Below are positions 1,319-59,390 of a stretch of DNA of 64,000 nt, one piece after another; the stretch's first letter is position 1; each line of letters opens with the position of its first letter. The stretch spans positions 1 through 64,000 of the forward strand of contig JAFHKN010000007.1 in assembly GCA_016937575.1 (NCBI GenBank). Direction: 5' to 3'. The notes beneath the pieces are model-generated. The model saw nothing but the letters and a program-made list of their open reading frames with translations, was not told the origin of the DNA and ran no database searches. Made by a program: the position numbers and the translations under genes. The stretch comes from Roseomonas aeriglobus. Lineage in GTDB: Bacteria; Pseudomonadota; Alphaproteobacteria; Sphingomonadales; Sphingomonadaceae.

Positions 1319-2555
1319 CATTCTCGATGCGTTGCGCGACCGAGTTTTGTTCGTGTCTTATGGCGGTGGCCATGCGGCTTCGCTGGCACCGGTGGCGAAG
1401 GAGTTGGAGCGTCGCGGCGTCCCCTTCTCGATCCTCGGACTGACGACGGCGGCGTCCTATTTCGCGCGTCATTCGCTGGAGCCGCTGGGCATGGCCGATC
1501 TTGTCGGCCGCGTCCCGGGCTATGAACATGCCGTGAAGACCGGCGAACGCCTAGCGGCGGGGCAGCCACGGCATGGTGCCGTATCTGCAACGGAAACCGC
1601 CGCCTATCTTGGGGCGGGATATATCGCGCTGGAGAGGATGTATGGCGCCGAGGAAGCGCAACGACGCTACGACAGGTTCAACCGCCAGAGCTTCCGTCCG
1701 CTTGATTTCTTCGACCGGCTGTTCGCAGCTGTCCGGCCGCGCGTTTTGGTGGCGACTAATTCGCCTCGCTCGGAACAGGCGGCGTTGAGTGCAGCCGGCT
1801 CCGCGGGGATCGCGTCGCTGTGTCTGGTCGACCTGTACGCAGCCTTCGAGATCGAATGGTGTGCGGCGCCCGGATATGCCGACCGCGTCTGTGTTCTCAA
1901 TGAAACGATCGCCGAGCGTTTTCGCACGCGAGGCGCAGATCCCGCTGCGGTCCGGGTCACGGGCAATCCGGCGTTCGACAGGCTGGGCCTGCTCGACCGG
2001 CACACCGTGCGTGCGCGTCATCGTGCGGCACTGGGATTGCGCGATGGCGACCGACTGATCGTCTGGATTTCGCAGCCCGAACCGCAGCTTCACCCTTTTT
2101 CTGGCGTCCGTGGTGATCCCAGCCTGCCGGCACGGATTGAGACGGAACTGGCGCAAGGTTTCGCCGATGCGTCGAATGTGTACCTTGTAATGCGGCTTCA
2201 TCCGAGCGAGGATCGCGGCCCGGCGGTGACGGGCGACAGGCTGCGTTACGGCACGGCGAGCGAGCCGCTGGACGACCTGTTGTGCGCGGCGGACTGCGTC
2301 GTGACGTGCAGTTCTACCGTTGGGGTGGAAGCAGGCTTGCTAGGAATTCCAGTGGTCCAGGTCATGCGCTCGATCTTCTCCCGCGACCTTCCCTTGGCCG
2401 ATATGGGCTATGCGACCGCAGCGACCGGCCCGGAAGATTTGAAGGCCCGCATCGTCGACGCCTTCGCGACGGGATTGCGCGATCCCGCTCGTGTCGGCAT
2501 CACGTTCGATGCGGCTGGGCGCGTGGCCGACGAGATCGCCGGACTGAGGCGATGA
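1311..2555 (+). CDS. GT-B-fold glycosyltransferase-like protein
   Basis: The protein has 414 residues from a TTG start at 1311. GGAG lies about 8 bases upstream and the start overlaps the previous stop. The frame stays open further upstream, but that part is only the shadow of the previous membrane gene. The N-terminus reads LFVSYGGGHAASLAPVAKEL, a nucleotide-sugar epimerase or glycosyltransferase type of Rossmann start. The C-terminal half has MRLHPSED and then a DCVVTCSSTVGVEAGLLGIP stretch, typical of GT-B and CDP-glycerol or capsule transferase families, in which such residues bind the nucleotide donor. Lying directly before the nonulosonic acid genes, it is a candidate transferase for that sugar. 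A PseG- or NeuC-like hydrolase role is less likely because a separate NeuC is present. Confidence 0.65.
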   Translation: MADILDALRDRVLFVSYGGGHAASLAPVAKELERRGVPFSILGLTTAASYFARHSLEPLGMADLVGRVPGYEHAVKTGERLAAGQPRHGAVSATETAAYLGAGYIALERMYGAEEAQRRYDRFNRQSFRPLDFFDRLFAAVRPRVLVATNSPRSEQAALSAAGSAGIASLCLVDLYAAFEIEWCAAPGYADRVCVLNETIAERFRTRGADPAAVRVTGNPAFDRLGLLDRHTVRARHRAALGLRDGDRLIVWISQPEPQLHPFSGVRGDPSLPARIETELAQGFADASNVYLVMRLHPSEDRGPAVTGDRLRYGTASEPLDDLLCAADCVVTCSSTVGVEAGLLGIPVVQVMRSIFSRDLPLADMGYATAATGPEDLKARIVDAFATGLRDPARVGITFDAAGRVADEIAGLRR

Positions 2556-3562
2556 CTCGTCATTTCGTCGTCGCCAGCCTGGGCAGCATCGGGCAGCGCC
2601 ATTTGCGCAATCTCCGAATCCTGCGCCCGGATGCCCGGATCACTGCCTTGCGGCGCCCCGAAAGCGCCCCCGTCACCTGTGACGGCTGCGACGGCGAGGT
2701 CACCTCGGTCGAGGCGGCGCTGGCGCTTCGCCCCGACGGGGTGATTCTCGCCGGACCCGCGCCGACCCATGTCCGGCTCGCTCGGGCCTTTGTCGAACAG
2801 GGCATTCCGGTCTTCATCGAGAAGCCGCTTTCGCACGATATAATCGGCCTGGACGAACTGGCGGCTGTCGCGGCGCGGGGCGCGATACCAGTGATGGTCG
2901 GCTACAACCTGCGGTTCAACCCTTCGCTGAACGCGCTCAGGCAGGACCTGCTGGGCGGTGCGATCGGCAAGGTGCTGGCGGTGCGCGCGGAGGTCGGACA
3001 ATATCTTCCGGACTGGCGATCAAATGCGGACTACCGCCAGGGCGTGTCCGCCCGACGGGCGCTGGGCGGCGGGCCGATCTTGGAACTGAGCCACGAGATC
3101 GACTATCTCTACTGGCTGTTCGGAATGCCGGCGTGGGTGACCTGCCGCGGGGGGCGCTATTCCGATCTCGAGATGGATGTCGAGGACTGCGTCGACATCT
3201 GCCTCGAATATGCCGAGCCGCGGCGCCTAGTGTCGGTGCATCTGGATTTTCTGCAGAGGCCGGTCGCTCGCACCTGCAAGTTCATCGGATCCGGCGGGAC
3301 CATCGTTTGGGAAGCGCTGCGGGATCGCCATATCGTCGAGGCCATGGATGGTGGACGTCGCGTCGTGGAATCCCCGTTGCCTGATCGCAACCGGATGTAT
3401 TTGGACGAACTCACCGACTTCCTCGGCGCGATCGAAGACGGGTGGCCCGTTTCTATTCCGCTGTCCGACGGCATCGACGTCATGCGGATCATCTCGGCCG
3501 CCGCCCGATCGCTGACGATCGGTCGGTCCATATCACTCCTTGAAGTGGAGCCTTACGCATGA
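2552..3562 (+). CDS. Gfo/Idh/MocA family oxidoreductase (PtmF-like)
   Basis: The protein has 336 residues. The ATG at 2552 overlaps the previous stop in an ATGA junction. The frame is open from 2282, but that part shadows the preceding gene. The N-terminal Rossmann motif GSIGQRH (residues 11-17), the EKP motif (residues 90-92) that places the conserved lysine of the family, and the C-terminal substrate domain with LELSHEIDYLYWLFG are all present. The enzyme should be a cytoplasmic NAD(P)-dependent sugar oxidoreductase. It sits with an SDR and a CMP-sugar synthetase. The Campylobacter ptm legionaminic locus also pairs a Gfo/Idh/MocA member (PtmF) with an SDR (PtmA), so a sugar-precursor role is plausible but unproven. 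Confidence 0.85.
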   Translation: MTRHFVVASLGSIGQRHLRNLRILRPDARITALRRPESAPVTCDGCDGEVTSVEAALALRPDGVILAGPAPTHVRLARAFVEQGIPVFIEKPLSHDIIGLDELAAVAARGAIPVMVGYNLRFNPSLNALRQDLLGGAIGKVLAVRAEVGQYLPDWRSNADYRQGVSARRALGGGPILELSHEIDYLYWLFGMPAWVTCRGGRYSDLEMDVEDCVDICLEYAEPRRLVSVHLDFLQRPVARTCKFIGSGGTIVWEALRDRHIVEAMDGGRRVVESPLPDRNRMYLDELTDFLGAIEDGWPVSIPLSDGIDVMRIISAAARSLTIGRSISLLEVEPYA

Positions 3563-4281
3563 AAGCGCGCGCCTTCATCTTCGCCCGCGGAGGCTCGAAG
3601 GGGGTGCCGCGCAAGAACGTGCGGGCGCTTGGCGGAGTGCCGCTGATTGGCCATGCCATCCGGGTCGCGCGCGCCTGTCCATCCTTGGACGAAGTCATCG
3701 TATCGACCGACGACGAGGAAATCGCACAGGTCGCGCTCGATCTTGGTGCTGAGGTTCCGTTTCTCCGTCCCCCCGCGCTGGCTTCCGATACTGCATCGGA
3801 ATGGATGGCGTGGCGTCACGCCATCGAATGGGTGCGGCGACATCGCGACGACTTCGATATTTTCGTCAGCCTGCCCGCGACCTCGCCATTTCGCGCCGTG
3901 GACGACGTGGAAGCCTGCATCGACATCCTGCGCCGCGACCCGCGGACCGACGTTGTAGCCACCGTCAAGAAGGCGGAACGCAGCCCTTATTTCAACATGG
4001 TCAGCCTGGATCCGGACGGTATCGCGCGACTGGTCATCCAGCCCCAGGGGGACGTGACGCGGCGACAGGACGCACCGGTCGTGTACGACATGACGACGGT
4101 CGCCTATGCGGTACGGCCCGACTTCGTGATGTCACGTGCCGGCCTCTTTGACGGTCGGATGCGCGTCGTCGAAATTCCGCCGGAGCGCGCACTGGACATA
4201 GACACGCCGTTCGATTTCGCGGTCGCGCAATATCTAGCAGAGCAAAATGCCGGAAACGGCTGGGACCCGATAGGAATTTGA
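3559..4281 (+). CDS. CMP-nonulosonic acid (NeuA/LegF/PtmB-type) cytidylyltransferase
   Basis: The protein has 240 residues, normal for NeuA-like cytidylyltransferases. The nucleotide-binding signature ARGGSKGVPRKN is at residues 9-20, followed by STDDEEIAQVA and LPATSPFR, and the late ERALDIDTPFDF segment is typical of CMP-sialate, CMP-pseudaminate and CMP-legionaminate synthetases. The reaction is CTP plus the free nonulosonate giving CMP-sugar and pyrophosphate, in the cytoplasm. It overlaps both neighbours (ATGA at the start, TGATG at the end). Immediate adjacency to an SDR matches the ptmB-ptmA order of Campylobacter. Which sugar is used (legionaminic, sialic or another) cannot be read from the sequence alone; the pathway context favours a legionaminic-type sugar. 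Confidence 0.9.
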   Translation: MKARAFIFARGGSKGVPRKNVRALGGVPLIGHAIRVARACPSLDEVIVSTDDEEIAQVALDLGAEVPFLRPPALASDTASEWMAWRHAIEWVRRHRDDFDIFVSLPATSPFRAVDDVEACIDILRRDPRTDVVATVKKAERSPYFNMVSLDPDGIARLVIQPQGDVTRRQDAPVVYDMTTVAYAVRPDFVMSRAGLFDGRMRVVEIPPERALDIDTPFDFAVAQYLAEQNAGNGWDPIGI

Positions 4282-5081
4282 TGCGCACCATAGCACAGTT
4301 GAGCGATTTGACAGGCAGGATCGCTCTTATAACCGGCGGGGCTGGGCATATCGGTCGGGCCATGGCAGGGGCGCTTGCCGAACAAGGCTGCGGCCTCATC
4401 TTGGTCGACCAGGATCAGGCGGCCCTATCCGACACTGCCGCTCCGCTGGGCGAGGCTGGGCTGCCGATCCACATAATTCCCGCCGACCTTGAGGATGAAG
4501 CGCAGCGGATTCGAATGATCGAGCGTGTCGTCGGCGATATCGGGCAACTCGATATCCTCGTCAACAATGCGGGGTTCGTGGGAACCAACCAGCTAGAGGG
4601 TTGGGCCGTCCCGTTCGAGGAGCAAAGCCTGACGACCTGGCGTCGTGCGGTCGAGGTCAACCTCACCGCCCCATTCCATCTCGCCCAGGCATTCACCCCG
4701 CTGTTGCGGCAAAGTGGTCGCGGCACGATCGTCAACGTGGGATCGATCTACGGCATCCTCGGCCCTGACCTCGATCTGTACGCTGGCACCCGGATGGGAA
4801 ATCCCGGCGGCTATGCCGCAAGCAAGGGCGGGCTCCTGCAGTTAACCCGCTGGCTTTCGACGTCGCTCGCACCGGCGGTCCGCGTCAACAGCGTCAGTCC
4901 GGGTGGCCTTGCACGGGGGCAGGCCGACAGTTTCGTCGAACGTTACGTCCGACGGACACCTTTGGGTCGGATGGGCACCGAAGAGGATTTCAAGGGCGTC
5001 ATATTGTTCTTGGCGAGTGATCTGTCAGCATGGATGACGGGCCAGAACATCATGGTGGATGGCGGATGGTCCGCATGGTAG
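4281..5081 (+). CDS. Short-chain dehydrogenase/reductase (PtmA-like)
   Basis: This is a 266-residue classical SDR. The cofactor motif TGGAGHIG is at residues 18-25, NNAG at 95-98, the catalytic Ser at 155 and the Tyr/Lys pair in GYAASKGG at 178 and 182. The C-terminal NIMVDGGWSAW is the usual family ending. A TTG three bases earlier could serve as start, but ATG at 4281 forms the TGATG junction with the previous gene. The protein should be a cytoplasmic NAD(P)-dependent oxidoreductase acting on a sugar. Location between the CMP-synthetase and NeuB supports a role in making or editing the nonulosonic acid. Confidence 0.85.
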   Translation: MRTIAQLSDLTGRIALITGGAGHIGRAMAGALAEQGCGLILVDQDQAALSDTAAPLGEAGLPIHIIPADLEDEAQRIRMIERVVGDIGQLDILVNNAGFVGTNQLEGWAVPFEEQSLTTWRRAVEVNLTAPFHLAQAFTPLLRQSGRGTIVNVGSIYGILGPDLDLYAGTRMGNPGGYAASKGGLLQLTRWLSTSLAPAVRVNSVSPGGLARGQADSFVERYVRRTPLGRMGTEEDFKGVILFLASDLSAWMTGQNIMVDGGWSAW

Positions 5082-5120
5082 AGGCGCGGTGTTTTGTGAT
5101 CCTGGAGCGCCCAGAACGCC

Positions 5121-6152
5121 GTGAAAACCTTTATTATCGCCGAAGCTGGCGTCAATCATAATGGTCGAGAAGAACTTGCATATGCATTGGTCGAAGCCGC
5201 GGCCGGAAGCGGTGCCGATGCGGTCAAGTTCCAGACCTTCTCTGCCGACCGGCTAGTCCGTCAAGGCGCGGCGACGGCTGACTATCAACAGCGGCAAACC
5301 GGAACCAGCGACCAGCATGCGCTGTTGAAATCGCTCGAGTTGCCGCTCGCCCTTCATGAAGGGCTGTTTCGCCGATGCGGTGAACTGGGGATCGAGTTCA
5401 TGTCGACACCGTTCGACAGGGAGTCCGCCGATTTCCTCGCCCAGCTAGGCATGCGGCGGTTCAAGATTCCTTCGGGCGAGATTACCAACGAGCCGTTCCT
5501 GGCCCATCTGGCGCGATATGGGCGACCGCTCGTCCTGTCGACCGGAATGGCGGACATGGACGAGATCACGCGAGCGGTCGAAGTCATCGGACAAGCGCGC
5601 GCGGACAGCGGACAGGCGCCCATCGGGGGCGAGGACCTGACGATCCTGCACTGCACGTCCAACTATCCCGCCGCCTATGCTGACGTGAATCTGCGCGCCA
5701 TGGCCAAGATTGGGCAGGCAACCGGACTTCCGATCGGCTACTCGGACCATAGCTTGGGTGTCGCTGTTTCAACCGCGGCTGTCGCCTTGGGCGCGGTCGT
5801 CATCGAAAAGCATTTCACCACTGATCGCGACCTGCCCGGTCCGGACCATCGCGCATCGCTGACAATTGCGGAACTGACCACCATGGTGGACCAGATCCGT
5901 GCGGTAGAAATGGCATTGGGATCGCCAAACAAGCGTCCGACGGAATCCGAATTGCCCGTGCGATCGCTGGTTCGGCGAAGCGTGACGACCCTGCGACCGA
6001 TTCCCGCCGGCGCCTACATAACACCGGAAGATATCGGTCTACTGCGCCCTGGAACCGGAATCCTTCCGCGCGACAGTGGAGCCGTCGTCGGCAAGCGAGC
6101 CCGTCATGCGATCGACGCCGGAATGACGTTGCAATGGTCGGATATAGAATGA
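5121..6152 (+). CDS. NeuB/LegI-type nonulosonic acid synthase
   Basis: The protein has 343 residues, family length. It condenses phosphoenolpyruvate with a 2-acetamido mannose-type sugar to give a nine-carbon nonulosonic acid in the cytoplasm. The NeuB barrel shows AEAGVNHNG (residues 7-15), KFQTF, STPFD, KIPSGEITN, STGMA, GYSDH and IEKHFTTDR. The C-terminus from about residue 285 is a SAF (antifreeze-like) domain with PAGAYITPEDIGLLRPG. The start is GTG at 5121, with a weak GGAG about 13 bases upstream; the 39-bp gap before it is the largest inside this part of the operon. It overlaps the epimerase gene that follows. Context favours the 2,4-diacetamido-trideoxymannose substrate of LegI over ManNAc. 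Confidence 0.93.
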   Translation: MKTFIIAEAGVNHNGREELAYALVEAAAGSGADAVKFQTFSADRLVRQGAATADYQQRQTGTSDQHALLKSLELPLALHEGLFRRCGELGIEFMSTPFDRESADFLAQLGMRRFKIPSGEITNEPFLAHLARYGRPLVLSTGMADMDEITRAVEVIGQARADSGQAPIGGEDLTILHCTSNYPAAYADVNLRAMAKIGQATGLPIGYSDHSLGVAVSTAAVALGAVVIEKHFTTDRDLPGPDHRASLTIAELTTMVDQIRAVEMALGSPNKRPTESELPVRSLVRRSVTTLRPIPAGAYITPEDIGLLRPGTGILPRDSGAVVGKRARHAIDAGMTLQWSDIE

Positions 6153-7279
6153 GCCGATTGATCTGGTACGTCTCGGGCACGCGAGCAGATTACGGTCTGA
6201 TGCGTGCGGTCCTTCAGGCGATTGATCGTCATCCTGACCTACGACTCGGAATATTGGTGACGGGCATGCACCTCGAACCAGCCTATGGCAAAACGGTGGA
6301 CGAGATTGCGGCGGACGGGTTTGACATCGTCGCGAAATTTCCCTCCGGAGAGGGGACGAGCGGCGGTGCCGAGATGGCTCGCGGCATATCGCGCATGATT
6401 TCGGGCTTTACCGACGCGATGGAGCGTGGGCGACCGGATATCGTGCTACTGCTCGGCGATCGGGGAGAAATGCTCGCCGGGGCCATCGCGGCGATACATT
6501 TGGACCTGCCGATTGTGCATATCCACGGGGGGGAGCGGTCGGGGACCGTCGACGAACCGATCCGCCATGCGATTTCGAAATTGGCGCACTATCACTTTGC
6601 CGCGACCGAAGAATCCGCGGAACGCTTGCGCCGTATGGGCGAGCACGCCGACGCCGTCCTGACCGTCGGCGCGCCTGGGCTGGTTGGTCTTGGCGATGCC
6701 GTCATGCGATCGAAAAACGAGTTGGCGGCAGAGGTTGGGTTCGACCCGTCACGCCCGATCGCGTTGTTCGCGTACCACGCCGTCCTCCAGGAAGCCTATA
6801 TGGCAGGCACGATCGCGGGAGCCATTCTTGAGTCTTTGGTCGCGCGCGGTTTCCAGACGATCGCGCTCAAGCCGAACTCGGACAGCGGCGGCGACCGTAT
6901 CCGCACGGAACTGGACGCCCGTACGGGTCAGCCTGGCCTCGTCGTGAAAACCCACCTTACGCGATCGCTGTTTATCAATTGGATGGCGGTGGTCGACCTG
7001 ATGATTGGCAATTCCAGTTCCGGCATCATTGAGGCTGCGACGTTCGGCACGCCTGTAATCAACGTCGGTCCTAGGCAGAACCTGCGGCAACGCAACGGCA
7101 ATGTGATCGACGCTGCCTCCACTCCCGAAGCCATCGACGCGGCGATTGCAACTGTCGCTAGCGGCACGCGCTTTCCAACAGCTAACATCTATGGCGACGG
7201 CGCATCGGACGAACGCATCGCCGCGCTGCTCGCGACTCTGCCGCTCCAAGGCGTGACATGGAAATCTAATGCCTATTGA
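6149..7279 (+). CDS. Hydrolysing UDP-sugar 2-epimerase (NeuC/LegG type)
   Basis: The protein has 376 residues from ATG 6149, which overlaps the NeuB stop (ATGA). An in-frame ATG at 6134 is less likely. Family signatures are SGTRADYG (residues 9-16), GDRGEM (103-108) and the HIHGGERSGTVDEPIRH stretch near 124-140 that carries catalytic residues; NSSSGIIEA lies in the C-terminal domain. NeuC and LegG remove UDP while inverting C2, here most likely giving 2,4-diacetamido-2,4,6-trideoxymannose, the NeuB substrate. It overlaps the acetyltransferase gene by 11 bases. UDP-GlcNAc itself is an alternative substrate, but the adjacent dehydratase, aminotransferase and acetyltransferase argue for the legionaminic-type route. 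Confidence 0.9.
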   Translation: MSRLIWYVSGTRADYGLMRAVLQAIDRHPDLRLGILVTGMHLEPAYGKTVDEIAADGFDIVAKFPSGEGTSGGAEMARGISRMISGFTDAMERGRPDIVLLLGDRGEMLAGAIAAIHLDLPIVHIHGGERSGTVDEPIRHAISKLAHYHFAATEESAERLRRMGEHADAVLTVGAPGLVGLGDAVMRSKNELAAEVGFDPSRPIALFAYHAVLQEAYMAGTIAGAILESLVARGFQTIALKPNSDSGGDRIRTELDARTGQPGLVVKTHLTRSLFINWMAVVDLMIGNSSSGIIEAATFGTPVINVGPRQNLRQRNGNVIDAASTPEAIDAAIATVASGTRFPTANIYGDGASDERIAALLATLPLQGVTWKSNAY

Positions 7280-7886
7280 ACCGCTTTTAGTAATCGGCGC
7301 AGGCGGGCATTCCAAGGTCGTTCTGGATGCATTAGCGTTGACGACCCCGCGCGCCGTACGTCTTTGTGACGACGATCCGCGCTGCGTCGGCCAGGTCGTG
7401 ATGAACACTGTAGTGGAGGCTCGGCCGGCGATCGCGACGCAACGGGGCATTCCCTTTCATATCGCGATCGGGAACGCGTTGCATCGCAGGTCACTCCAGA
7501 AGGCGCTGGTCGAAGCTGGCGCAATTCCAACGTCGGTCATCCATCCGGCGGCCGTAGTATCCGCATCGGCGGCAATCGGTGCAGGCAGCTTCGTGGCTGC
7601 GCGGGCTGTGATCGCGCCAGATACGGGCGTCGGCGATAGCGTTATCGTAAATCATGGTGCGATTATCGACCATGATTGCGAAGTCGGCGATTTTTCGCAT
7701 ATCGCACCGAACTCGACACTATGTGGGGGTGTCCGTATCGGCGTAGCGGTCCTGATTGGAGCGGGAGCGACAATCCTGCCGGGTGTCCATATCGGCGATG
7801 CCGCCATTATCGCCGCCGGTGCCACGATCGTTCGTGACGTGGCCCCGAATGAGAAGGTAATCTTCGCCTTGGCTCGTAAGAATTGA
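7269..7886 (+). CDS. PglD/NeuD-family sugar O/N-acetyltransferase
   Basis: The protein has 205 residues. The N-terminal nucleotide-sugar-binding Rossmann piece carries VIGAGGHSKVVLDAL (GAGGHSK at residues 10-16). From about residue 90 it turns into a left-handed beta-helix of hexapeptide repeats (AAIGAGSFVAARAVIAPDTG and following), with IIDHDCEVG holding the histidine that serves as base in PglD. The expected reaction is acetyl-CoA-dependent N-acetylation of the 4-amino group of UDP-4-amino-4,6-dideoxy-GlcNAc. It sits between the 2-epimerase and the aminotransferase, which makes its substrate and product flow clear. NeuD-like O-acetylation of the finished acid is the main alternative. Confidence 0.88.
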   Translation: MPIEPLLVIGAGGHSKVVLDALALTTPRAVRLCDDDPRCVGQVVMNTVVEARPAIATQRGIPFHIAIGNALHRRSLQKALVEAGAIPTSVIHPAAVVSASAAIGAGSFVAARAVIAPDTGVGDSVIVNHGAIIDHDCEVGDFSHIAPNSTLCGGVRIGVAVLIGAGATILPGVHIGDAAIIAAGATIVRDVAPNEKVIFALARKN

Positions 7887-7896
7887 AGGTTTGCGC

Positions 7897-9366
7897 GTGG
7901 ACATAGAAGCGATCTTTGTGACCCGTTCTGTATCTTTGCGCCACGCGCTGGAACGGATGAATGCCGGAGGCAAAGGGCTGTTGCTCCTAGTCGACGGAGA
8001 CGGTCGTTTTGAACGAACGATCACCGACGGCGACCTGCGCCGCGAGCTTCTTGCCGGTCGGTCGCTTGATGACGACCTTCGGCAACTCGCGTCGTTCCAC
8101 TCGCTCACGATCGATGAGAACACCACGCGCCGGCAAGCTCTGGCGCTCATGAACGAACATTCCATCAATCACATGCCGGTGATCCGGCCCAATGGAACCG
8201 TCGCAAGCCTGCTGGATCGCCGTGAGGTCGACAGCCAGATCCTTCTGTCAACCCCGCATATGGGTGATACCGAACAGGCCTTCGTCGAAGAGGCTTTCCG
8301 TACGAATTGGATTGCTCCTCTCGGCCCCCATGTCGATGCTTTCGAGCAGGAATTGGCCGAATTGGTTGGGATGGGACATGCCGCAGCGGTTTCTTCGGGG
8401 ACTGCCGCGCTCCATCTGGCCTTGCGGCTGCTCGACGTCGGCCCCGGCGATCGCGTCTTCTGCTCGACACTGACCTTTGCCGCCAGCGCCAACCCCATTG
8501 TCTATCAGGGAGCGACCCCGGTCTTCATCGATTCCGAGGCCGAAAGCTGGAACATGTCGCCTATCGCTCTCGAACGCGCATTCGCCGCAGCGAAGGCCGA
8601 AGACTGGTTGCCCAAGGCTGTGATCGTGGTCAACTTGTACGGCCAAAGCGCTAATATTGATCCGATCAAGACTATTTGCGACGCGCACGGCGTTCCTATC
8701 GTCGAGGACGCAGCGGAATCACTTGGTGCGACCTACAAAGGTCGCGCGAGCGGTTCTTTCGGATTGCTCACCGTCTTCTCCTTTAACGGAAATAAGATTA
8801 TTACGACATCGGGCGGTGGCATGCTACTGTCGAACGACGATCATCTGATCGAGCGCGCTAGATTTCTGGCGACACAGGCTCGCGATCCCGCCCCGCATTA
8901 CCAGCATAGCCAGATCGGCTTTAACTACCGTTTGAGCAACATCCTGGCTGGTGTCGGTCGAGGGCAACTAAAGGTTCTGGGTGATCGCGTGCGCGCGCGC
9001 CGGGACGTGTTCAGCCGGTACGAGCATGGTCTGTCCGACATAGCGGAGATTAGATGGATGCCTGAACCGGAGTGGAGCCATGGGACGCGCTGGCTGACGG
9101 CCTGTACCGTTGACCCGGCGGGGCCGATCAGCCGCGAGGGCCTGCGCCTTCATCTCGCGGAGGATCTGATTGAGGCACGCCCCGTGTGGAAGCCGATGCA
9201 TCAGCAACCCGTATTTGCCGGTGCAGCCTATTACAGCGCCGAGGAGCAGTCGATTTCTGACCGTCTGTTCGATGACGGCCTGTGCCTGCCATCAGGGTCG
9301 AACCTGTCGGATGTACAGATCGATCGAACAATCTCGTCGATCAGGGCGGCATTCGGACGCTCATGA
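7897..9366 (+). CDS. CBS-domain pair fused to DegT/DnrJ/EryC1/StrS sugar aminotransferase
   Basis: The protein has 489 residues from GTG 7897. AAGG lies 7 bases upstream, whereas the TTG at 7891 sits too close to it. Residues 1-115 are a CBS pair (TITDGDLRREL at 41-51, then NHMPVIRPNGTVASLLDRRE) like the regulatory N-terminus of PtmE-type nucleotidyltransferases. Residues 125-489 are a complete PLP aminotransferase with SSGTAALHLAL (166-176), DAAES (271-275) and the PLP lysine 300 in SFNGNK. It should convert the 4-keto sugar from the downstream dehydratase into the 4-amino sugar (PglE/LegC-like). The CBS pair may bind a nucleotide and tune flux. The fusion order is intact in both copies, so it is not an assembly join. 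Confidence 0.9.
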   Translation: MDIEAIFVTRSVSLRHALERMNAGGKGLLLLVDGDGRFERTITDGDLRRELLAGRSLDDDLRQLASFHSLTIDENTTRRQALALMNEHSINHMPVIRPNGTVASLLDRREVDSQILLSTPHMGDTEQAFVEEAFRTNWIAPLGPHVDAFEQELAELVGMGHAAAVSSGTAALHLALRLLDVGPGDRVFCSTLTFAASANPIVYQGATPVFIDSEAESWNMSPIALERAFAAAKAEDWLPKAVIVVNLYGQSANIDPIKTICDAHGVPIVEDAAESLGATYKGRASGSFGLLTVFSFNGNKIITTSGGGMLLSNDDHLIERARFLATQARDPAPHYQHSQIGFNYRLSNILAGVGRGQLKVLGDRVRARRDVFSRYEHGLSDIAEIRWMPEPEWSHGTRWLTACTVDPAGPISREGLRLHLAEDLIEARPVWKPMHQQPVFAGAAYYSAEEQSISDRLFDDGLCLPSGSNLSDVQIDRTISSIRAAFGRS

Positions 9367-9507
9367 CGATCATTAGGGCCACGATATGGTCTGCGTCGGG
9401 GATTGTTTCGCCGTTGCGCGAAACGCTGTAGAGCCGCCTCCCAAGCATGAACCTATACTATCGGTGCCGTCCAGGCGCGATGCATGCCCGGGGGCGAAAG
9501 GATTAGA

Positions 9508-11445
9508 ATGCGTAAGGTTATCGCTCCGTTGTTGCGGATGCCGCATACCGGAAGGGGGCTTCTGGCGCTCTTTGCGGACATTCTGATCTGTCCGATCTCG
9601 GCATGGCTGGCATTCTACCTGCGCCTTGGAGAAATCTCCGGTTTCGCGGCTGGCTTTCATGTGGCGTCGCTTGTCAGCCTGGCGATCGCCCTGCCTATAT
9701 TTTACGTCTCGGGCTTGTACAGCGTCATCCTGCGCCACGCGACTTGGAACGTTCTGATCGATATCGTGCGTTCGGTCGTGATCTACGGCGTCGTATTTGC
9801 GTTCATCTTTTCAGTTGTCGGCGTGCCGGGCGTACCCCGCACTATCGGCCTAATCCAACCTATTCTGTTGTTCTTGGGTATAGGATGTTCACGTGCGATC
9901 GTCGGATATTGGCTTGGCAACACATACCGACGGCAGCATCGCGACGAGTCGAAGATCAGTATTCTGATCTATGGCGCTGGTGCATCGGGACGGCAGTTGG
10001 CCAGTGCGATAAGCTATAGCGGTGCTTTTCGGCTTGTCGGGTTCGTAGACGATGCACCGACACTGCGCGGTCGCCGATTGGGCAACGTCCGCATTCATGG
10101 ACCCGACGAATTATCAGCTCTCATCCGCAAGCACGATATCGAGGAAGTGCTGCTGGCGCTGCCGTCTGCTCCGCGCAGCCGGCGAAACCAAATCATGAAA
10201 CTGCTCTACGACTTGGATATTCGCGTTAGAACGCTTCCAGGACTGATGGATTTGGCGAGTGGTCGGGTCGAGGTGACAGATCTTCGTCCTTTGGAGATCG
10301 AGGACCTGCTCGGTCGCAACGTCGTGGCACCGGACCCGATCCTGCTCGCGCATGATATCAGGCGAAAGACTGTCCTGGTGACAGGGGCTGGTGGTTCGAT
10401 CGGAAGTGAACTGTGCCGGCAGATTCTGCAGGTGCAGCCTGCGACGTTGCTGCTTGTCGAAAGCAGCGAGTTTTCACTGTATTCCATCAATCAGGAACTT
10501 GAAAAGGCAGCCCTATCCCAAGGCGCCACCGAAGTATCGATCGTCCCTCTTCTCGCATCGGTGCGTGAAACGCGACGGATCGACGAGATTATCAGGACGT
10601 GGCGGGTCGATACCATCTACCATGCAGCGGCCTACAAGCATGTTCCACTAGTCGAACATAATCCGACTGAAGGCGTCTTGAATAACGTATTCGGTACTTT
10701 GTCGACGGCGCGGGCTGCACATCGCCACGGGGTCGCAAAATTCGTTCTCGTCAGTACAGACAAGGCGGTTCGTCCGACTAACATCATGGGTGCCAGCAAG
10801 CGTATTGCCGAAATGGTGCTGCAGGCGATGGCGGAGGAGCCTACCGACACTTGCTTCACCATGGTCAGGTTCGGTAATGTCCTAGGATCGAGCGGATCGG
10901 TTGTGCCCCTGTTCCGCCGCCAGATCGAGGAAGGCGGCCCGATCACTATCACCCACCGCGACATCAATCGATATTTCATGACAATCCCTGAAGCTGCCCA
11001 ACTCGTCATCCAGGCTGGGGCGATGGCGCATGGTGGTGAGGTTTTCGTCTTGGACATGGGCAAACCGGTGCGCATTGCCGACCTTGCGCGCAACATGGTG
11101 GAACTTTCCGGCTTGACAATCAGAGACCATAACCATCCCGACGGTGATATCGAGATTCATGAAGTCGGCTTGCGCCCTGGTGAGAAGCTCTATGAGGAGC
11201 TATTGATTGGCGACAATCCCGAGATGACATCCCATCCCCGGATCATGAAGGCTAACGAGCAGTTTATACCCTTGCTCAAAATCAATGATGAACTTGAGTT
11301 GATGATGCATGCGATAAATGATGATAACGCTATCTTGCTCAAGGAAATACTTTGTAGGATTGTTCCCGAATATAACACGACCAGTGATGTTGTTGATTGG
11401 GTAGGAATAAGACGTGCTGCGATCGTCGTAGATAGTGAATTATAG
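9508..11445 (+). CDS. Membrane-bound nucleotide-sugar 4,6-dehydratase (PglF/WbpM/CapD family)
   Basis: The protein has 645 residues. ATG 9508 has GAAAGGA about 6 bases upstream; the in-frame ATG at 9484 lacks a good site. The N-terminus has about four membrane spans (to residue 140), then a CoA-binding-like Rossmann fold with YGAGASGRQ (155-163), then the catalytic SDR domain with TGAGGSIG (292-299), STDKA (416-420) and MGASK (427-431). The Met in place of the usual Tyr is characteristic of this large dehydratase class. It converts UDP-GlcNAc to UDP-4-keto-6-deoxy-GlcNAc at the inner membrane. A 141-bp gap separates it from the aminotransferase, so it may have its own promoter. A role as C4,C6-dehydratase for N-acetylfucosamine synthesis is possible, but the aminotransferase next door argues otherwise. 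Confidence 0.92.
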   Translation: MRKVIAPLLRMPHTGRGLLALFADILICPISAWLAFYLRLGEISGFAAGFHVASLVSLAIALPIFYVSGLYSVILRHATWNVLIDIVRSVVIYGVVFAFIFSVVGVPGVPRTIGLIQPILLFLGIGCSRAIVGYWLGNTYRRQHRDESKISILIYGAGASGRQLASAISYSGAFRLVGFVDDAPTLRGRRLGNVRIHGPDELSALIRKHDIEEVLLALPSAPRSRRNQIMKLLYDLDIRVRTLPGLMDLASGRVEVTDLRPLEIEDLLGRNVVAPDPILLAHDIRRKTVLVTGAGGSIGSELCRQILQVQPATLLLVESSEFSLYSINQELEKAALSQGATEVSIVPLLASVRETRRIDEIIRTWRVDTIYHAAAYKHVPLVEHNPTEGVLNNVFGTLSTARAAHRHGVAKFVLVSTDKAVRPTNIMGASKRIAEMVLQAMAEEPTDTCFTMVRFGNVLGSSGSVVPLFRRQIEEGGPITITHRDINRYFMTIPEAAQLVIQAGAMAHGGEVFVLDMGKPVRIADLARNMVELSGLTIRDHNHPDGDIEIHEVGLRPGEKLYEELLIGDNPEMTSHPRIMKANEQFIPLLKINDELELMMHAINDDNAILLKEILCRIVPEYNTTSDVVDWVGIRRAAIVVDSEL

Positions 11446-12607
11446 ATTGATTTGGCGAGCAACTTCATTGGCCATTAACATCAGTAAGATCGTGCGGATG
11501 TTTTCTGGAGTAATGATCTTCATTCTGACATCTACGGTTTTGCTGTCATTTAGTAATGATGTTTCAAAGGCTGAACAGCCTGTGAGCCGTGATCAGAGCG
11601 GTTTTGTTGACGGTGTGGCCGATGTGCGCTCGCCAGCGTTCGGTGCGAAGGGCGATGGTCGTGCTGACGATACCGTTGCCATCCAAGCTGCAATTGATCG
11701 ATATGCTCGCGTATATCTTCCGGCTGGTGTGTACCGCATTAATTCGAAAGTCGGCCTGTCGTTGCGAACCGGGACGCAACTGCTAGGAGACGGGCGCGCA
11801 GCGACTTTGCTCGTCGCAGTGCCAGGCGGTGGAACCCTTGCGGATTTGGCGTCATACAGAACGGGATCTCTGATACGCCGCAAGTTCGACCCTCATCATC
11901 AAAATTCCTATGTCAATTATGTGAGACTGGCCGATTTTAGTGTTATCTTGAATCATCCCAGAGATGCAGTGACGGCAGATAGAATTCAGATCGGAATTGA
12001 TTTTCGGAATATCAGTCGCTCCATAATAGAACGCGTGCACGTTGGAAATTCTCTACCAGAGGGTACAGTACTGCGTAAAGTAGCGGCGCACGTGTACGAT
12101 AGCCAGGGTTATGGTATTGTCTTGGGTTCAGTGCCGAGTGGCTTGATATCTTATGCGGGCGGCGAACTCAACGTTGTTAGAGATTCGAGTGTCTGGGGCG
12201 CTTACAAAGCTATCGTTCAGGACGATTTACGATTGAGTCCGCGCTCGGCCGCTCATGCGACCAGGATAGAGCGAAATGACCTTCAGGGTGCGCAATATCT
12301 TTTGTCTCAAGAGAGCCGATACATGCACGGAAGTGTATGGCGCGACAATATCCTGCAAAATGTCGTTCCCAGGCCCGATGGGGTAGAAGACGCGGCCGTC
12401 ATTCATGTTGATGGGCAGGATTCCCGTGTGGACGGGGGCTATGTCGAAGCTGGCGGATTAAGTAAATATCTTATTTATTTAGGGAAGTTTACCAAACGCG
12501 TTTCAGTACATCTCGACTATACAAGCTGCACCAATACAACAAAGATAGTCAACTTGGGGAACGACAATAAGATATCGTTGAGTGATGCTTGTCTTACCTA
12601 TAGATAG
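11435..12607 (+). CDS. Secreted right-handed beta-helix (pectate-lyase-3-like) protein
   Basis: The protein has up to 390 residues from GTG 11435, overlapping the dehydratase end. ATG 11498 would give a cleaner signal peptide (MFSGVMIFILTSTVLLSFSN) and is equally plausible. After the signal the motif FGAKGDGRADDTVAIQAAID, followed by VYLPAGVYRI, marks the start of a pectate-lyase-3 or tailspike-like parallel beta-helix. It is probably exported to the periplasm or outside, where it may cut or modify the exopolysaccharide. No catalytic residues can be assigned. The DNA after about 11900 is AT-rich compared with the operon, suggesting separate acquisition. It is intact here; the second copy is frameshifted. 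Confidence 0.75.
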   Translation: MNYRLIWRATSLAINISKIVRMFSGVMIFILTSTVLLSFSNDVSKAEQPVSRDQSGFVDGVADVRSPAFGAKGDGRADDTVAIQAAIDRYARVYLPAGVYRINSKVGLSLRTGTQLLGDGRAATLLVAVPGGGTLADLASYRTGSLIRRKFDPHHQNSYVNYVRLADFSVILNHPRDAVTADRIQIGIDFRNISRSIIERVHVGNSLPEGTVLRKVAAHVYDSQGYGIVLGSVPSGLISYAGGELNVVRDSSVWGAYKAIVQDDLRLSPRSAAHATRIERNDLQGAQYLLSQESRYMHGSVWRDNILQNVVPRPDGVEDAAVIHVDGQDSRVDGGYVEAGGLSKYLIYLGKFTKRVSVHLDYTSCTNTTKIVNLGNDNKISLSDACLTYR

Positions 12608-12695
12608 ACATCATTTATCGTATGTTCTAAGTGACTGATCATCCCTCGGCTTGACGGACACCCATGATAGGCTCAGCGGGCCAAGAGGTGTGTTG

Positions 12696-12865
12696 ATGGC
12701 AAGTACGACGAAGCGTCGTTTTACGGAGGAGTTCAAGCGCGAGGTTGTGGTGTTGTGAGAGACGAGCAGCCGCACACAGGCCGAGATAGCGGCTGAGTTA
12801 GGTATCGTGCCTGCGTTGCTGGCAGCGCAAGCAGCAGGAGGGCAGCGCTCCGCCGGCCAGCCCGT
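12696..12865 (+). pseudogene. IS3-family orfA remnant (outer element)
   Basis: The frame starting ATGGCAAGTACGACGAAG reads MASTTKRRFTEEFKREVVVL, then a TGA stop, then ETSSRTQAEIAAELGIVPALL. This is the helix-turn-helix start of an IS3-family OrfA with an in-frame stop, cut off by the IS256-type element at 12866. It is not functional. Confidence 0.75.
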
Positions 12866-14173
12866 GGGAGTGGCAGGAATTCTGTGCGGGAGGCCGTTAT
12901 CGTCATCAGATGACGAGCCGCTCGCCGAAGATGACGGCGAACTGGGTCTTTGCCTCGGACCACTCGCGGGGTGGACGTTTTCTACTCCTGAGCGGCGGTA
13001 TTGAGTACGATGTATAGCAGCTTCATCGCGGCATCGTCACCGGGGAAGTGGCCGCGGGTCCGCACAGCCCTTCGCAGTTTCGAGTTCAGCGCCTCGATGG
13101 CGTTGGTGGTGTAGATGATCCGGCGGACGCCCTCGGGGAAGGCAAAGAACGGATCACCTGGTCCCAATGGCGCCGCCAGCTCTGCGCGATCGCCGGGTAC
13201 CGCTTGCCCCAGGGACCGGCCTCGAAGGCGTCCAGCGCCGCCAGGCCGGCTTCGACCGTCTCGGTGCGGTAGACGCTGCGGAGTGCCTGTGCGATCGGCT
13301 TGCGGTCCTTCCACGACGCAAAGCTCATCGAATTGCGCAGCAGGTGGACGATGCAGAGCCTGCCCCGGCGAAGGCCGAAGTCTGGACGACCGTCGCCGGG
13401 AAGGCTGCGTTGATCGCCTCAGGAAATCCCTTCAGGCCATCGACGACGGCGATCAGGATGTCGGCGACGCCGCGGTTCCCAAGCTCGTTCATCACCGCCA
13501 GAATTTGGCGCCCTCGGTCTGGTCGATCCAGATGCCGAGGATGTCCTTGGTGCCATCGGGCAAAATGCCAAGCGCGATGTATACCGCCTTGTTGCGCACG
13601 AAGCCCTCGTCGCGGATCTTTACCCGGATCGCGTCGAAAAGACGAGATCGCAGGTGTCGAGCGGGCGGCCCTGCCATTCCGAAACTGTTTCCAGAACCGC
13701 GTCGGTCACCGTCGAGATCAGGTCCGGCGACACGTCGATGCCGTACAGCTCCTCCAGATGCCCGCGGATCTCGCGCACCGTCATCCCGCGCGCGTACATC
13801 GAGACGATCTTGTCATCGAGGTCCGGAAACCGGCGCTGGTACTTGGCGATGAGCTTCGGGTCGAACGTGCCCGCCCGGTCGCGCGGAATGTCCAGCGTCA
13901 CCTTCGACGTGCCCGTCAGCATCGTCTTGCGCTACGAGACGTTACGCCGATTGTCGGCACCTTCATTCCCGAGATGATCGTTGAGCTCAGCCGACAGCAT
14001 GCGCTCCGAAAGCGCCTTCTTCAATTCGTCGAGCAGCCCGTCCTTCGCAAACAGTTCCTGTGGGTCACGGCCAGCCAGCAGCTGGTCCAGAACGTCCTTG
14101 TCGATTGCCATATCGATGGTCCTTCCTCTCCATCATTATGGCCTCCCGCACAGAATTCCTGACACTCCCGCTT
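12866..14173 (-). mobile_element. IS256-family insertion sequence
   Basis: Terminal inverted repeats of about 30 bp with one mismatch bound the element. The left begins GGGAGTGGCAGGAATTCTGT at 12866, and the right is its complement ending CCTGACACTCCC near 14172. The length of about 1.3 kb is normal for IS256. No 8- to 9-bp target duplication is seen, because the left flank belongs to one IS3 element and the right flank to another. That points to a deletion beside the element after insertion. Confidence 0.85.
12980..14111 (-). pseudogene. IS256-family (Mutator type) transposase, broken
   Basis: Reading leftward from ATG 14111 the frame gives MAIDKDVLDQLLAGRDPQEL and continues to NRRNVS before a TAG stop. 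It resumes as [18 protein letters not shown], through [20 protein letters not shown], shifts frame near 13640 at the first catalytic Asp region, shifts again near 13500, and ends with TNAIEALNSKLRRAVRTRGH and MKLLYIVLNTAAQEW. Family landmarks are all present, but one stop and at least three frameshifts disable it. The same stop is found in the second copy, so that defect is probably real; some frameshifts differ between copies and are sequence errors. Confidence 0.85.
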
Positions 14174-14852
14174 GCCCCGGATCACACCCTGTAGACCCAT
14201 ATCGCGCATCAGCCGCTCGATGGTGCAGCGGGCGACCGGGAAGCCCTCGCGCATCATCTGCCGCCAGACCTTGCGGACGCCGTAGACCGCGAAGTTCTTG
14301 GCGAACCCGCGAGCCACTTCGGGCTTGAGAACTTGATCCCGCTGCGCCCGCGCCGACAGGCGCATTGGATTTCGTCGTTGCGCGACATGCTCGAAATACG
14401 TCGATGGGGCGATCGACAAGACGCGGCAGATCGGCTCGACCCATAGACATCGCGGTGATCATCGATAAAGGCGAGCATCACCGGAACGGGCGGTCGAGCT
14501 CCGCTGGACAAAATACGCGGACGCCTTGCGCAGGATCTCGTTGGCTTGGCGCAACTCACGGACTTCGCGCTCCAACGCCTTCATCTTGTCAGCAACCTCG
14601 GTCGGAACGCCAGCGCGCCTGCCGCTGTTCACCTCAGCCTTCTTCACCCACTCATGCAGCGTCTGCGGCACGCACCCGATCTTCTCCGCAATGGAAACCA
14701 CCGCCGCCCATCGCGATGGGTGATCGCGCTCGTGTCCAGCACCATCCGTACCGCCCGCTCGCGGACCTCAGGCGCAAACTTGTTCGTCGTCTTGCTCATA
14801 CAGGCTCCACCTTCTCAGGAGTTGGAGCCTCCGATAAACCCGGCACGGTTCA
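14167..14852 (-). mobile_element. IS3-family element, truncated right part (second copy at 34106-35424)
   Basis: This segment is nearly identical to the right part of the element at 34106-35424, starting exactly at the CCCGCTTGCCCCGG next to the IS256-type end. It keeps the terminal repeat GGAGCCTCCGATAAACCCGG ending at 14852, orfA fragments ([20 protein letters not shown]) and the start of orfB (SIAPSTYFEHVAQRRNPMRL). The left half, with the DDE catalytic region, is missing. It was inserted into the outer IS3 element before the IS256-type event. Confidence 0.85.
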
Positions 14853-14869
14853 AATCGTCACTACAGCCT

Positions 14870-15096
14870 GGTTCCAGCTGGATGAAGAAACTGGGGTCAC
14901 GTCACCAAATGCCCCGATGGAGAGCTTCTTCCACACCCTCAAGGTCGAGCTGGTCCATCAATGCCGATGGGCGCCCCAGTCAAAAGCCCGACAGGCGCTG
15001 TTCGGATACATTGAAGGATACTACAACCGGCACCGCATGCACTCGGCCCTCGGGTATCTGACACCCGAGCAAGCCGAGCAGCGCATGACCGGCTAA
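14870..15096 (+). pseudogene. IS3-family orfB C-terminal remnant (outer element)
   Basis: The end of a transposase is readable as NAPMESFFHTLKVELVHQCR, then FGYIEGYYNRHRMHSALGYL and TPEQAEQRMTG with a TAA stop at 15094-15096. This is the classical C-terminal part of an IS3-group DDE integrase, including the final catalytic Glu in MESFF. The upstream part has been displaced by the nested elements. Confidence 0.85.
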
Positions 15097-15157
15097 CCCC
15101 GCGTGTCCGCCAAAACGGGGAATGATCAATCTCGCGCCTAGTTAACTTCCCCACTGC

Positions 15158-15427
15158 TCAATCGCCCACCGGACTCTCTCCGTGCTTCCTGAGCACGTCG
15201 TTGAAAGCCTCGGTCATCAGAGCCTGCAGGCTTCGTCCTTGGCGGCGCGCCAGCATGTGCATGGCAAAGGACATTTCAGGCGAGAAGAAGCCGGCGATCT
15301 GTTTGCGTCCCTGACGGCTTAGGGGTGTCTTGTCGATGGCCTCCCCTGCTCCGGGCGTTCCCGCTGCAGTCTGTTTCAACGCCGGGCTTGTCCCGCGCAG
15401 ATTGGCGAAGCTGGGTTTACGGCTCAT
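15158..15427 (-). CDS. Small ribbon-helix-helix-like partner of ParA
   Basis: The protein has 89 residues. The C-terminal half IAGFFSPEMSFAMHMLARRQ, followed by GRSLQALMTEAFNDVLRKHG, fits a ribbon-helix-helix DNA-binding fold, with a basic disordered N-terminus. It directly follows parA and shares an ATGA overlap with it. Small RHH proteins encoded downstream of a short ParA are the centromere-binding partners of type Ib plasmid partition systems, so that role is likely. It may also repress the parA promoter. Confidence 0.75.
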   Translation of the reverse strand: MSRKPSFANLRGTSPALKQTAAGTPGAGEAIDKTPLSRQGRKQIAGFFSPEMSFAMHMLARRQGRSLQALMTEAFNDVLRKHGESPVGD

Positions 15428-16080: not shown

Positions 16081-16090
16081 GATCGAATTT

Positions 16091-16222
16091 CCTACATGTC
16101 TACATGGCGACTCGCCGAGATTTCGACGATGCCGTTTAGGCGGCTTGTCGTCGCCCTAACCCGATCACGGTTGGACAGCTAGTCCCATCGACATGTCGAC
16201 GTGCAAAGCATGCAACATGTCT
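16091..16222. promoter_or_regulatory. Candidate parC/operator repeats upstream of parA
   Basis: Three copies of a CATGTC core lie in front of parA: CTACATGTCTACATG at 16092-16106, TCGACATGTCGA at 16188-16199 with GTCGACGTGC overlapping its right side, and CAACATGTCTG near 16213-16223. Type Ib systems normally have their centromere and autoregulatory operator here. The same core occurs at other backbone sites. The assignment is inference from position and repetition. Confidence 0.5.
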
Positions 16223-57920: not shown

Positions 57921-59390
57921 GTGGACATAGAAGCGATCTTTGTGACCCGTTCTGTATCTTTGCGCCACGCGCTGGAACGGATGAATGCCGGAGGCAAAGG
58001 GCTGTTGCTCCTAGTCGACGGAGACGGTCGTTTTGAACGAACGATCACCGACGGCGACCTGCGCCGCGAGCTTCTTGCCGGTCGGTCGCTTGATGACGAC
58101 CTTCGGCAACTCGCGTCGTTCCACTCGCTCACGATCGATGAGAACACCACGCGCCGGCAAGCTCTGGCGCTCATGAACGAACATTCCATCAATCACATGC
58201 CGGTGATCCGGCCCAATGGAACCGTCGCAAGCCTGCTGGATCGCCGTGAGGTCGACAGCCAGATCCTTCTGTCAACCCCGCATATGGGTGATACCGAACA
58301 GGCCTTCGTCGAAGAGGCTTTCCGTACGAATTGGATTGCTCCTCTCGGCCCCCATGTCGATGCTTTCGAGCAGGAATTGGCCGAATTGGTTGGGATGGGA
58401 CATGCCGCAGCGGTTTCTTCGGGGACTGCCGCGCTCCATCTGGCCTTGCGGCTGCTCGACGTCGGCCCCGGCGATCGCGTCTTCTGCTCGACACTGACCT
58501 TTGCCGCCAGCGCCAACCCCATTGTCTATCAGGGAGCGACCCCGGTCTTCATCGATTCCGAGGCCGAAAGCTGGAACATGTCGCCTATCGCTCTCGAACG
58601 CGCATTCGCCGCAGCGAAGGCCGAAGACTGGTTGCCCAAGGCTGTGATCGTGGTCAACTTGTACGGCCAAAGCGCTAATATTGATCCGATCAAGACTATT
58701 TGCGACGCGCACGGCGTTCCTATCGTCGAGGACGCAGCGGAATCACTTGGTGCGACCTACAAAGGTCGCGCGAGCGGTTCTTTCGGATTGCTCACCGTCT
58801 TCTCCTTTAACGGAAATAAGATTATTACGACATCGGGCGGTGGCATGCTACTGTCGAACGACGATCATCTGATCGAGCGCGCTAGATTTCTGGCGACACA
58901 GGCTCGCGATCCCGCCCCGCATTACCAGCATAGCCAGATCGGCTTTAACTACCGTTTGAGCAACATCCTGGCTGGTGTCGGTCGAGGGCAACTAAAGGTT
59001 CTGGGTGATCGCGTGCGCGCGCGCCGGGACGTGTTCAGCCGGTACGAGCATGGTCTGTCCGACATAGCGGAGATTAGATGGATGCCTGAACCGGAGTGGA
59101 GCCATGGGACGCGCTGGCTGACGGCCTGTACCGTTGACCCGGCGGGGCCGATCAGCCGCGAGGGCCTGCGCCTTCATCTCGCGGAGGATCTGATTGAGGC
59201 ACGCCCCGTGTGGAAGCCGATGCATCAGCAACCCGTATTTGCCGGTGCAGCCTATTACAGCGCCGAGGAGCAGTCGATTTCTGACCGTCTGTTCGATGAC
59301 GGCCTGTGCCTGCCATCAGGGTCGAACCTGTCGGATGTACAGATCGATCGAACAATCTCGTCGATCAGGGCGGCATTCGGACGCTCATGA
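57921..59390 (+). CDS. CBS-aminotransferase fusion (repeat of 7897-9366)
   Basis: The translation is identical to the gene at 7897-9366. Both copies carry the fusion without any difference at the domain junction. Confidence 0.9.
   Translation: MDIEAIFVTRSVSLRHALERMNAGGKGLLLLVDGDGRFERTITDGDLRRELLAGRSLDDDLRQLASFHSLTIDENTTRRQALALMNEHSINHMPVIRPNGTVASLLDRREVDSQILLSTPHMGDTEQAFVEEAFRTNWIAPLGPHVDAFEQELAELVGMGHAAAVSSGTAALHLALRLLDVGPGDRVFCSTLTFAASANPIVYQGATPVFIDSEAESWNMSPIALERAFAAAKAEDWLPKAVIVVNLYGQSANIDPIKTICDAHGVPIVEDAAESLGATYKGRASGSFGLLTVFSFNGNKIITTSGGGMLLSNDDHLIERARFLATQARDPAPHYQHSQIGFNYRLSNILAGVGRGQLKVLGDRVRARRDVFSRYEHGLSDIAEIRWMPEPEWSHGTRWLTACTVDPAGPISREGLRLHLAEDLIEARPVWKPMHQQPVFAGAAYYSAEEQSISDRLFDDGLCLPSGSNLSDVQIDRTISSIRAAFGRS

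Follow-up and report, generated by a model that had tools for sequence, protein, structure and literature searches.

What could a CBS regulatory pair be doing at the N-terminus of a sugar aminotransferase? The question is raised by a gene on contig JAFHKN010000007.1 of Roseomonas aeriglobus, of which the first 64,000 nucleotides (the window) were analysed. A single uninterrupted frame at 7897..9366 on the plus strand encodes, by its translation, both the CBS pair and the aminotransferase. The predicted product of 489 residues starts at GTG 7897, which is preceded by GAAGG; TTG 7891, two codons upstream, is an alternative start. The CBS model (PF00571) matched two stretches of the protein with 44 bits against a gathering cut-off of 24, and DegT_DnrJ_EryC1 (PF01041) spanned positions 124-484 with 326 bits (cut-off 19.8), these positions being numbered from TTG 7891 and therefore two higher than from GTG 7897. 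Based on Pfam and on matches to solved chains, the CBS pair was placed at about residues 3-113 (7903..8235, plus strand), with TDGDLRR in its first CBS domain. The same evidence, together with an alignment of fusions, placed the DegT-type aminotransferase part at residues 115-489 (8239..9363, plus strand). Since the likeness to solved CBS chains stops at about residue 112 and that to solved aminotransferases starts at residue 115, the junction is nearly free of linker.

Lys300 (numbered from GTG 7897) sits in SFNGNKI, and its column is invariant across 62 aligned fusions. The aminotransferase part is complete and of the DegT type. An earlier note on this DNA had described a CBS pair and a full DegT/DnrJ/EryC1/StrS aminotransferase with a PLP-binding Lys300 in one protein, and Pfam, the translation and the invariant lysine all agree with this predicted architecture. 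Two genes run together in the record were ruled out, since the joined frame recurs in 22 of the 23 fusion loci. For the 23rd (L050), the record has a frame of 193 aa with the CBS pair and a frame of 358 aa with most of the aminotransferase.

One gene copy on a circular plasmid

The same note had reported the fusion in two copies. Window positions 1-13981 and 50026-64000 are 99.94% identical, the only differences being 8 single-base indels (0 mismatches). Furthermore, the last stretch of the 66,640 bp contig (63900-66640) matches window 13881-16627, again with 0 mismatches. The contig is an uncircularised circular plasmid of about 50 kb with redundant ends, and because of this redundancy one fusion gene is seen twice. 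The second reading, at 57921..59390 on the plus strand, has identical letters and lies in the contig end overlap; it is not a second copy and adds no evidence. Two gene copies on one plasmid were thus ruled out by the assembly overlap, in which the gene readings are identical and beyond which the contig end keeps repeating.

The indels in the overlap break frames in one reading, such that a frame of 390 aa at 11435 becomes frames of 145 and 266 aa at 61459 and 61830. An identical repeat of 686 bp was found at window 14167-14852 and 34739-35424, the first copy of which overlaps a region matching an IS3-family transposase from a different plasmid. Window 12866-14170 matches IS256-family transposases.

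Genes around the fusion

The genes flanking the fusion all lie on the plus strand. Upstream, in this order, are a Gfo/Idh/MocA oxidoreductase (2282..3562; PF22725, PF01408, PF02894), a cytidylyltransferase that is probably a CMP-nonulosonate synthetase (3559..4281; PF02348, 76.7 bits), a short-chain dehydrogenase (4278..5081; PF13561, PF00106), a NeuB-type nonulosonate synthase with a SAF domain (5121..6152; PF03102, PF08666), a NeuC-type hydrolysing 2-epimerase (6134..7279) and a NeuD-type acetyltransferase (7269..7886). The latter three all exceeded their NCBIfam cut-offs: 416.6 bits for TIGR03569 (cut-off 399.65), 367.4 for TIGR03568 (cut-off 235.9) and 190.2 for TIGR03570 (cut-off 160.8), respectively. 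Downstream of the fusion follows a WbpM/PglF-type nucleotide-sugar 4,6-dehydratase (9484..11445; PF02719, 409 bits) with the Met-type catalytic motif TDKAVRPTNIMGASK. According to the accessible part of a review (PMC8987622), this motif is that of WbpM and PglF, which are UDP-GlcNAc 4,6-dehydratases. The motif argues only for a non-inverted sugar.

For legionaminic acid, two routes have been described, the UDP-linked one in L. pneumophila and the GDP-linked one in C. jejuni (PMC6137143, accessible part); a UDP route has also been described in B. subtilis (PMC7439481, accessible part). Beside the aminotransferase, the gene set of the UDP route is complete, comprising the WbpM/PglF-type dehydratase, NeuD, NeuC, NeuB and the cytidylyltransferase, the last counted by Pfam alone since its 136.7 bits for the PseF model TIGR03584 fall under the cut-off of 205.7. 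The fusion gene lies among genes for a CMP-nonulosonic acid, probably of the legionaminic type and made by the UDP route; the exact sugar, legionaminic acid or another isomer, we infer from sequence. That amination would be the committed step, as had been suggested, is unproven; the dehydratase acts earlier. Elsewhere on the plasmid, window 44551-49257 encodes an HpcH/HpaI aldolase, a MurJ-like flippase, a sugar transferase and an asparagine synthase, and the same kinds of product are encoded beside a fusion and NeuB on another plasmid (L319).

Distribution of the fusion

CBS and DegT domains were found together in all of the 120 best of 8000 scored homologues; all 120 also match the CBS model, which was built partly from them. 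Close aminotransferases (E <= 1e-100) occurred in 15 of 289 genomes of the host's class, with 4 fusions among them, and in 15 of 396 genomes of its order, where 8 are fusions, both counts including the R. aeriglobus genome itself. Among 72,556 plasmid records, 28 matched the fusion at E <= 1e-60, and among the 25 matches listed the match reached into the CBS part in at least four: CP049031.1, NZ_CP049039.1, NZ_CP106737.1 and the Azospirillum plasmid NZ_CP039644.1 (34% identity). All four proteins carry the annotation aminotransferase, and a NeuB-type gene lies within 10 kb of each; NZ_CP049039.1 and NZ_CP106737.1 share the same proteins.

The fusion is, accordingly, common in sequence databases, yet it is without a published account in the searchable literature. 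By the terms of the earlier note, its proposal would be refuted if the fusion were already both widespread and characterised. Homologues, genomes and plasmids showed it to be widespread, while no characterisation turned up. Neither the fusion nor any CBS-domain control of bacterial nonulosonic acid synthesis was found in searches that combined the CBS domain with legionaminic acid, CMP-Kdo, nucleotide sugar/aminotransferase/DegT, nucleotidyltransferase/NeuB or pseudaminic acid, the scope of which leaves out most subscription journals. The accessible parts of PMC7371886 and PMC7591256 contain nothing on CBS domains.

Fusion loci and stand-alone relatives

NeuB was present in the stretch read at 19 of 23 fusion loci, as compared to 1 of 64 loci with a stand-alone relative (Fisher test, p 2e-14, which ignores relatedness and is descriptive only). 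As for the four fusion loci without NeuB, one lies on a short contig (L019) and three belong to genomes with NeuB elsewhere (L105, L106 and L107); of 18 genomes encoding a stand-alone relative, 9 likewise contain NeuB somewhere. Of the 64 stand-alone loci, 47 have a WbpM-like dehydratase or a NeuD-like gene, a pattern that would be expected of bacillosamine-type sugars. At the fusion loci, a WbpM-like dehydratase was present in 12 of 23, with the Met-type motif in 11 of those 12. Since the other 11 loci have none, the UDP route is supported for about half of the fusions only.

In the aminotransferase tree, the 22 full-length fusions fell on one side of a branch (SH-aLRT 94), and the association between fusion and NeuB consequently represents one event on the tree. 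The inner forks of this first family were left open in an enlarged quick tree, where the stand-alone row L028 stood among them. Two fusion loci (L109 and L110) have NeuB and the CMP synthetase in duplicate, together with two CBS pairs, of which one belongs to the aminotransferase and the other to a NeuB protein.

Kinship and signature of the CBS pair

A tree of 80 CBS pairs rests on 114 columns and has many weak forks; in it, the 23 fusion pairs grouped together (97/93) beside 22 PtmE-type pairs (82/74), with a joint node of 89/84. The 26 KpsF pairs came next (75/43) and 7 NeuB-CBS pairs stood apart. When three rows were added in a quick tree, the PtmE pairs ceased to form one side of a branch. 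When profiles were compared with that of the fusion CBS, PtmE scored 180.6, KpsF 117.1, NeuB-CBS 92.5, small CBS proteins 75.8 and IMPDH-type proteins 57.7, the compared profiles differing in depth. The joint node and the best profile score bear out the likeness to PtmE-type CBS pairs from which the earlier note had set out.

The signature TDGDxRR was found in 119 of the 120 best first-family fusions, 118 of 121 PtmE-type proteins, 24 of 26 KpsF and 5 of 7 NeuB-CBS proteins. It was absent (0 of 31) from the control loci, which carry other CBS genes; some of these controls are the same gene twice, and two lack a match to the CBS model. One control has the near form TDKDLRR. By TDGDLRR and by its grouping in the tree, the pair of the fusion falls into the KpsF/PtmE subgroup as defined here. 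Even divergent fusions preserve the T-x-x-D motif and the arginines of the first CBS, and a Rhodobacterales fusion has SDGDIRR instead of TDGDxRR. Searched with the fusion profile, the best CBS chain in the PDB was 4o9k (7.4e-12), the CBS pair of a KpsF-type isomerase, which we take to hold CMP-Kdo. Next came 2ef7 (7.8e-11), a CBS protein for which we know of no such link; a search with the single sequence reverses this order.

Other enzymes with such CBS pairs

A first sample comprised 80 NeuB-centred stretches from 190 genomes of the host's class, the host's own genome excluded and the strongest matches taken first. A CBS pair of this class was present in 18 of them: on 11 nucleotidyltransferases, on 5 NeuB proteins, at the C-terminal end of one protein of 388 aa (L172), and in one gene cut by a contig end. 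The fusion occurred in none of the 80, and all five NeuB-CBS genes adjoin a CMP synthetase. In a second sample of 25 CBS-nucleotidyltransferase loci, drawn from 289 genomes, NeuB was in the stretch at 18 and NeuB, NeuC or a CMP synthetase at 23. The other two, L311 and L313, lie near aminotransferase genes, but the stretch read contains neither NeuB nor NeuC nor a CMP synthetase. Across the loci considered here, the carriers of such CBS pairs are enzymes of the PtmE, KpsF, NeuB or aminotransferase type, and CMP-ulosonate genes are mostly close by. NeuB frames of about 770-820 aa with an N-terminal CBS pair were observed at L109:15576-17897 (minus strand), where the protein extends well past the NeuB part, and also at L110, L204, L215, L216, L218 and L221. 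At L315:7569-10562, a 998 aa frame has a CBS pair and a nucleotidyltransferase at its C-terminal end.

A CBS-nucleotidyltransferase was found in none of the 18 fusion loci with NeuB and NeuC, nor in any of the 23 fusion loci; among the non-fusion loci of the NeuB set with NeuC and a LegC-type aminotransferase, it was present in 5 of 6, the exception being L174 (Fisher test, p 1e-4, likewise descriptive and blind to relatedness). As had been stated for the plasmid, no gene with CBS and nucleotidyltransferase parts was detected there, nor in the rest of the genome at E <= 1e-5. The chromosome does encode a KpsF-type SIS-CBS isomerase with TDGDLRR (G000:C2:3147799-3148962, read as L013:7799-8962, minus strand), near which lies a DAHP-synthetase-family gene. 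This chromosomal CBS gene, two genes from an aminotransferase, was ruled out as a PtmE since it is the KpsF-type protein.

A strict rule by which the fusion marks the UDP route and the CBS-nucleotidyltransferase the GDP route was not borne out. Among 12 CBS-nucleotidyltransferase loci checked, a strong LegB-like match was found in 5 (L067, L177, L188, L194 and L227), and L178 has a WbpM-like dehydratase in its place. At L194 both the dehydratase (498.5, LegB cut-off 475) and the aminotransferase (535.5, LegC cut-off 420) pass, while at L199 the aminotransferase passes LegC (480.1) and the dehydratase fails LegB (78.7). Given these numbers, and a WbpM-like dehydratase at 12 of the 23 fusion loci, the routes separate as a tendency, not as a rule.

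A second family of CBS-aminotransferases

The Azospirillum protein combines a CBS pair carrying TDGDIRR with an aminotransferase that groups with those of CBS-nucleotidyltransferase loci, and the locus carries neuB and a cytidylyltransferase. Among the 120 matches listed for this second family, the CBS model matched all 120 and TDGDxRR was present in 100. One origin for all CBS-aminotransferases was rejected with p-AU 0.0029 (34 rows, 12 held together, quick tree), in a test where the Azospirillum row is a long branch, the set was thinned and the enlarged tree had been inspected beforehand. This p-AU, with its one long-branch row, suggests that the second aminotransferase family gained its CBS pair independently.

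A member at L320:8983-10470 belongs to this family, the proteins of which are often named perosamine synthetase; others come from Salinibacter and from assemblies that bear the labels Flavobacteriales and Elusimicrobia. Among further stretches fetched for the family, L323 has a CBS-aminotransferase fusion together with NeuB, NeuC, NeuD and a CMP synthetase, and no CBS pair was detected at threshold in L322, L324 and L325. L322 holds a relative with an N-terminal part of 118 residues and no CBS match.

Proposed role of the CBS pair

Quite possibly, if just short of probably, the fusion is a regulated sugar aminotransferase in which the CBS pair serves as a portable sensor of CMP-ulosonates and gives end-product feedback. 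In such a mechanism, NeuD, NeuC, NeuB and the cytidylyltransferase would carry the aminotransferase product on to a CMP-nonulosonate, probably of the legionaminic type. The N-terminal CBS pair, as a putative member of a portable subfamily on several enzymes of CMP-ulosonate pathways, would most likely bind this end product, with the ribose held by the T-x-x-D motif and the phosphate and carboxylate by the conserved arginines. On this view, T43 and D46 would line the nucleotide pocket along with R40, R48 and R49. The occupied pair would then lower aminotransferase activity. This reading draws on the kinship of the CBS pair with PtmE and then KpsF, the match to 4o9k, the TDGDxRR pattern, the NeuB and CMP synthetase context and the second, apparently independent fusion. 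Because the host enzymes differ in substrate, yet mostly act in pathways that end in a CMP-ulosonate, the latter would be the most parsimonious shared ligand, and its binding would most simply serve feedback inhibition. The earlier note had considered a nucleotide, a CMP-sugar or a UDP-sugar as ligand; control by a nucleotide sugar is what we infer, and the contexts favour a CMP-sugar.

Several observations count against end-product feedback. The link to NeuB counts as a single event on the tree, a WbpM-like dehydratase is missing from 11 of 23 fusion loci, L311 and L313 depart from the CMP-ulosonate rule, and 2ef7 ranks above 4o9k by single sequence. The signature, moreover, is incomplete in NeuB-CBS and in the listed second-family proteins, is altered in SDGDIRR and approached by TDKDLRR in a control, and the L322 relative lacks a CBS match.

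It seems unlikely that the pair instead senses a precursor or intermediate (UDP-GlcNAc, the UDP-4-amino sugar, UDP or CTP), giving feed-forward or local product control. The fusion does place it on a UDP-sugar enzyme, and on PtmE-type proteins it would be on the enzyme of another sugar nucleotide. However, KpsF, PtmE-type and NeuB enzymes share no single precursor, so that each would need a ligand of its own, which the shared signature speaks against. A structural pair without ligand, whose task would be to fix the oligomeric state or to dock the enzyme onto a partner such as the membrane dehydratase, would fit the near absence of a linker, and CBS pairs commonly dimerise. Such a role is nevertheless improbable, given that the T-x-x-D motif and the arginines of the first CBS are retained in divergent fusions, and docking to one partner would not account for the presence of this subgroup on KpsF, PtmE-type and NeuB enzymes as well. 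Sensing of AMP, ADP or ATP, which would couple surface-sugar production to cellular energy status, draws on adenine nucleotides being the commonest CBS ligands and on a T-x-x-D motif that fits any ribonucleotide, but we give it little credence since it leaves unexplained why one CBS subgroup keeps to KpsF, PtmE-type, NeuB and aminotransferase enzymes whose genes mostly neighbour those for CMP-ulosonates.

If end-product feedback by a CMP-ulosonate is the correct reading, the finished sugar may switch off its own production in the synthesis of sialic-acid-like surface sugars. Conceivable, if rather doubtful, is a more general role of the TDGDxRR CBS subfamily as a portable sensor of CMP-activated 2-keto-3-deoxy sugar acids, which would exert end-product control over bacterial sialic-acid-like and Kdo pathways through whatever enzyme is available in a given route. 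Its carriers would be KpsF, PtmE-type nucleotidyltransferases, some NeuB proteins and, with at least two acquisitions, sugar aminotransferases. Should one CBS subgroup indeed report the CMP-activated end product, one kind of assay would test the rule across Kdo, legionaminic and related pathways, and the pair would offer a handle for engineered glycan synthesis.

Comparison with known systems

The PtmE-type CBS-nucleotidyltransferase of legionaminic-type loci resembles the fusion in its N-terminal CBS pair of the closest subgroup, with TDGDxRR, and in its usual place near NeuB (18 of 25 loci). Its catalytic part is a nucleotidyltransferase (PF00483), where the fusion has an aminotransferase, and it is absent from the host genome. 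The arabinose-5-phosphate isomerases KpsF, KdsD and GutQ, which act in the pathway to CMP-Kdo and of which the host genome has one, share a related CBS pair with TDGDxRR, and NCBIfam kpsF was the top non-aminotransferase match of the fusion CBS part (39.1 bits). Unlike the fusion, they have a SIS catalytic domain and carry the CBS pair at the C-terminus.

PglE and LegC belong to the same catalytic family as the fusion and are stand-alone enzymes without a CBS pair. The solved aminotransferase chains closest to the fusion are 1o61 and 4ztc, both of which we take to be C. jejuni PglE. Against the LegC model TIGR04181 (cut-off 420), the fusion reached 352.1 bits and another fusion (L108) 357.7, whereas the stand-alone enzymes of two CBS-nucleotidyltransferase loci pass with 535.5 and 480.1. 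The UDP-route legionaminic pathway of L. pneumophila and of the B. subtilis sps genes has the same order of steps from UDP-GlcNAc; in the accessible parts of these papers, 'CBS' occurs 0 times (PMC7439481) and once, in a web address (PMC6137143). Finally, the Azospirillum-type CBS-aminotransferase, annotated as perosamine synthetase or aminotransferase, shares the domain order of the fusion and a related CBS pair, but its aminotransferase lies on a different branch, in keeping with the rejected common origin (p-AU 0.0029).
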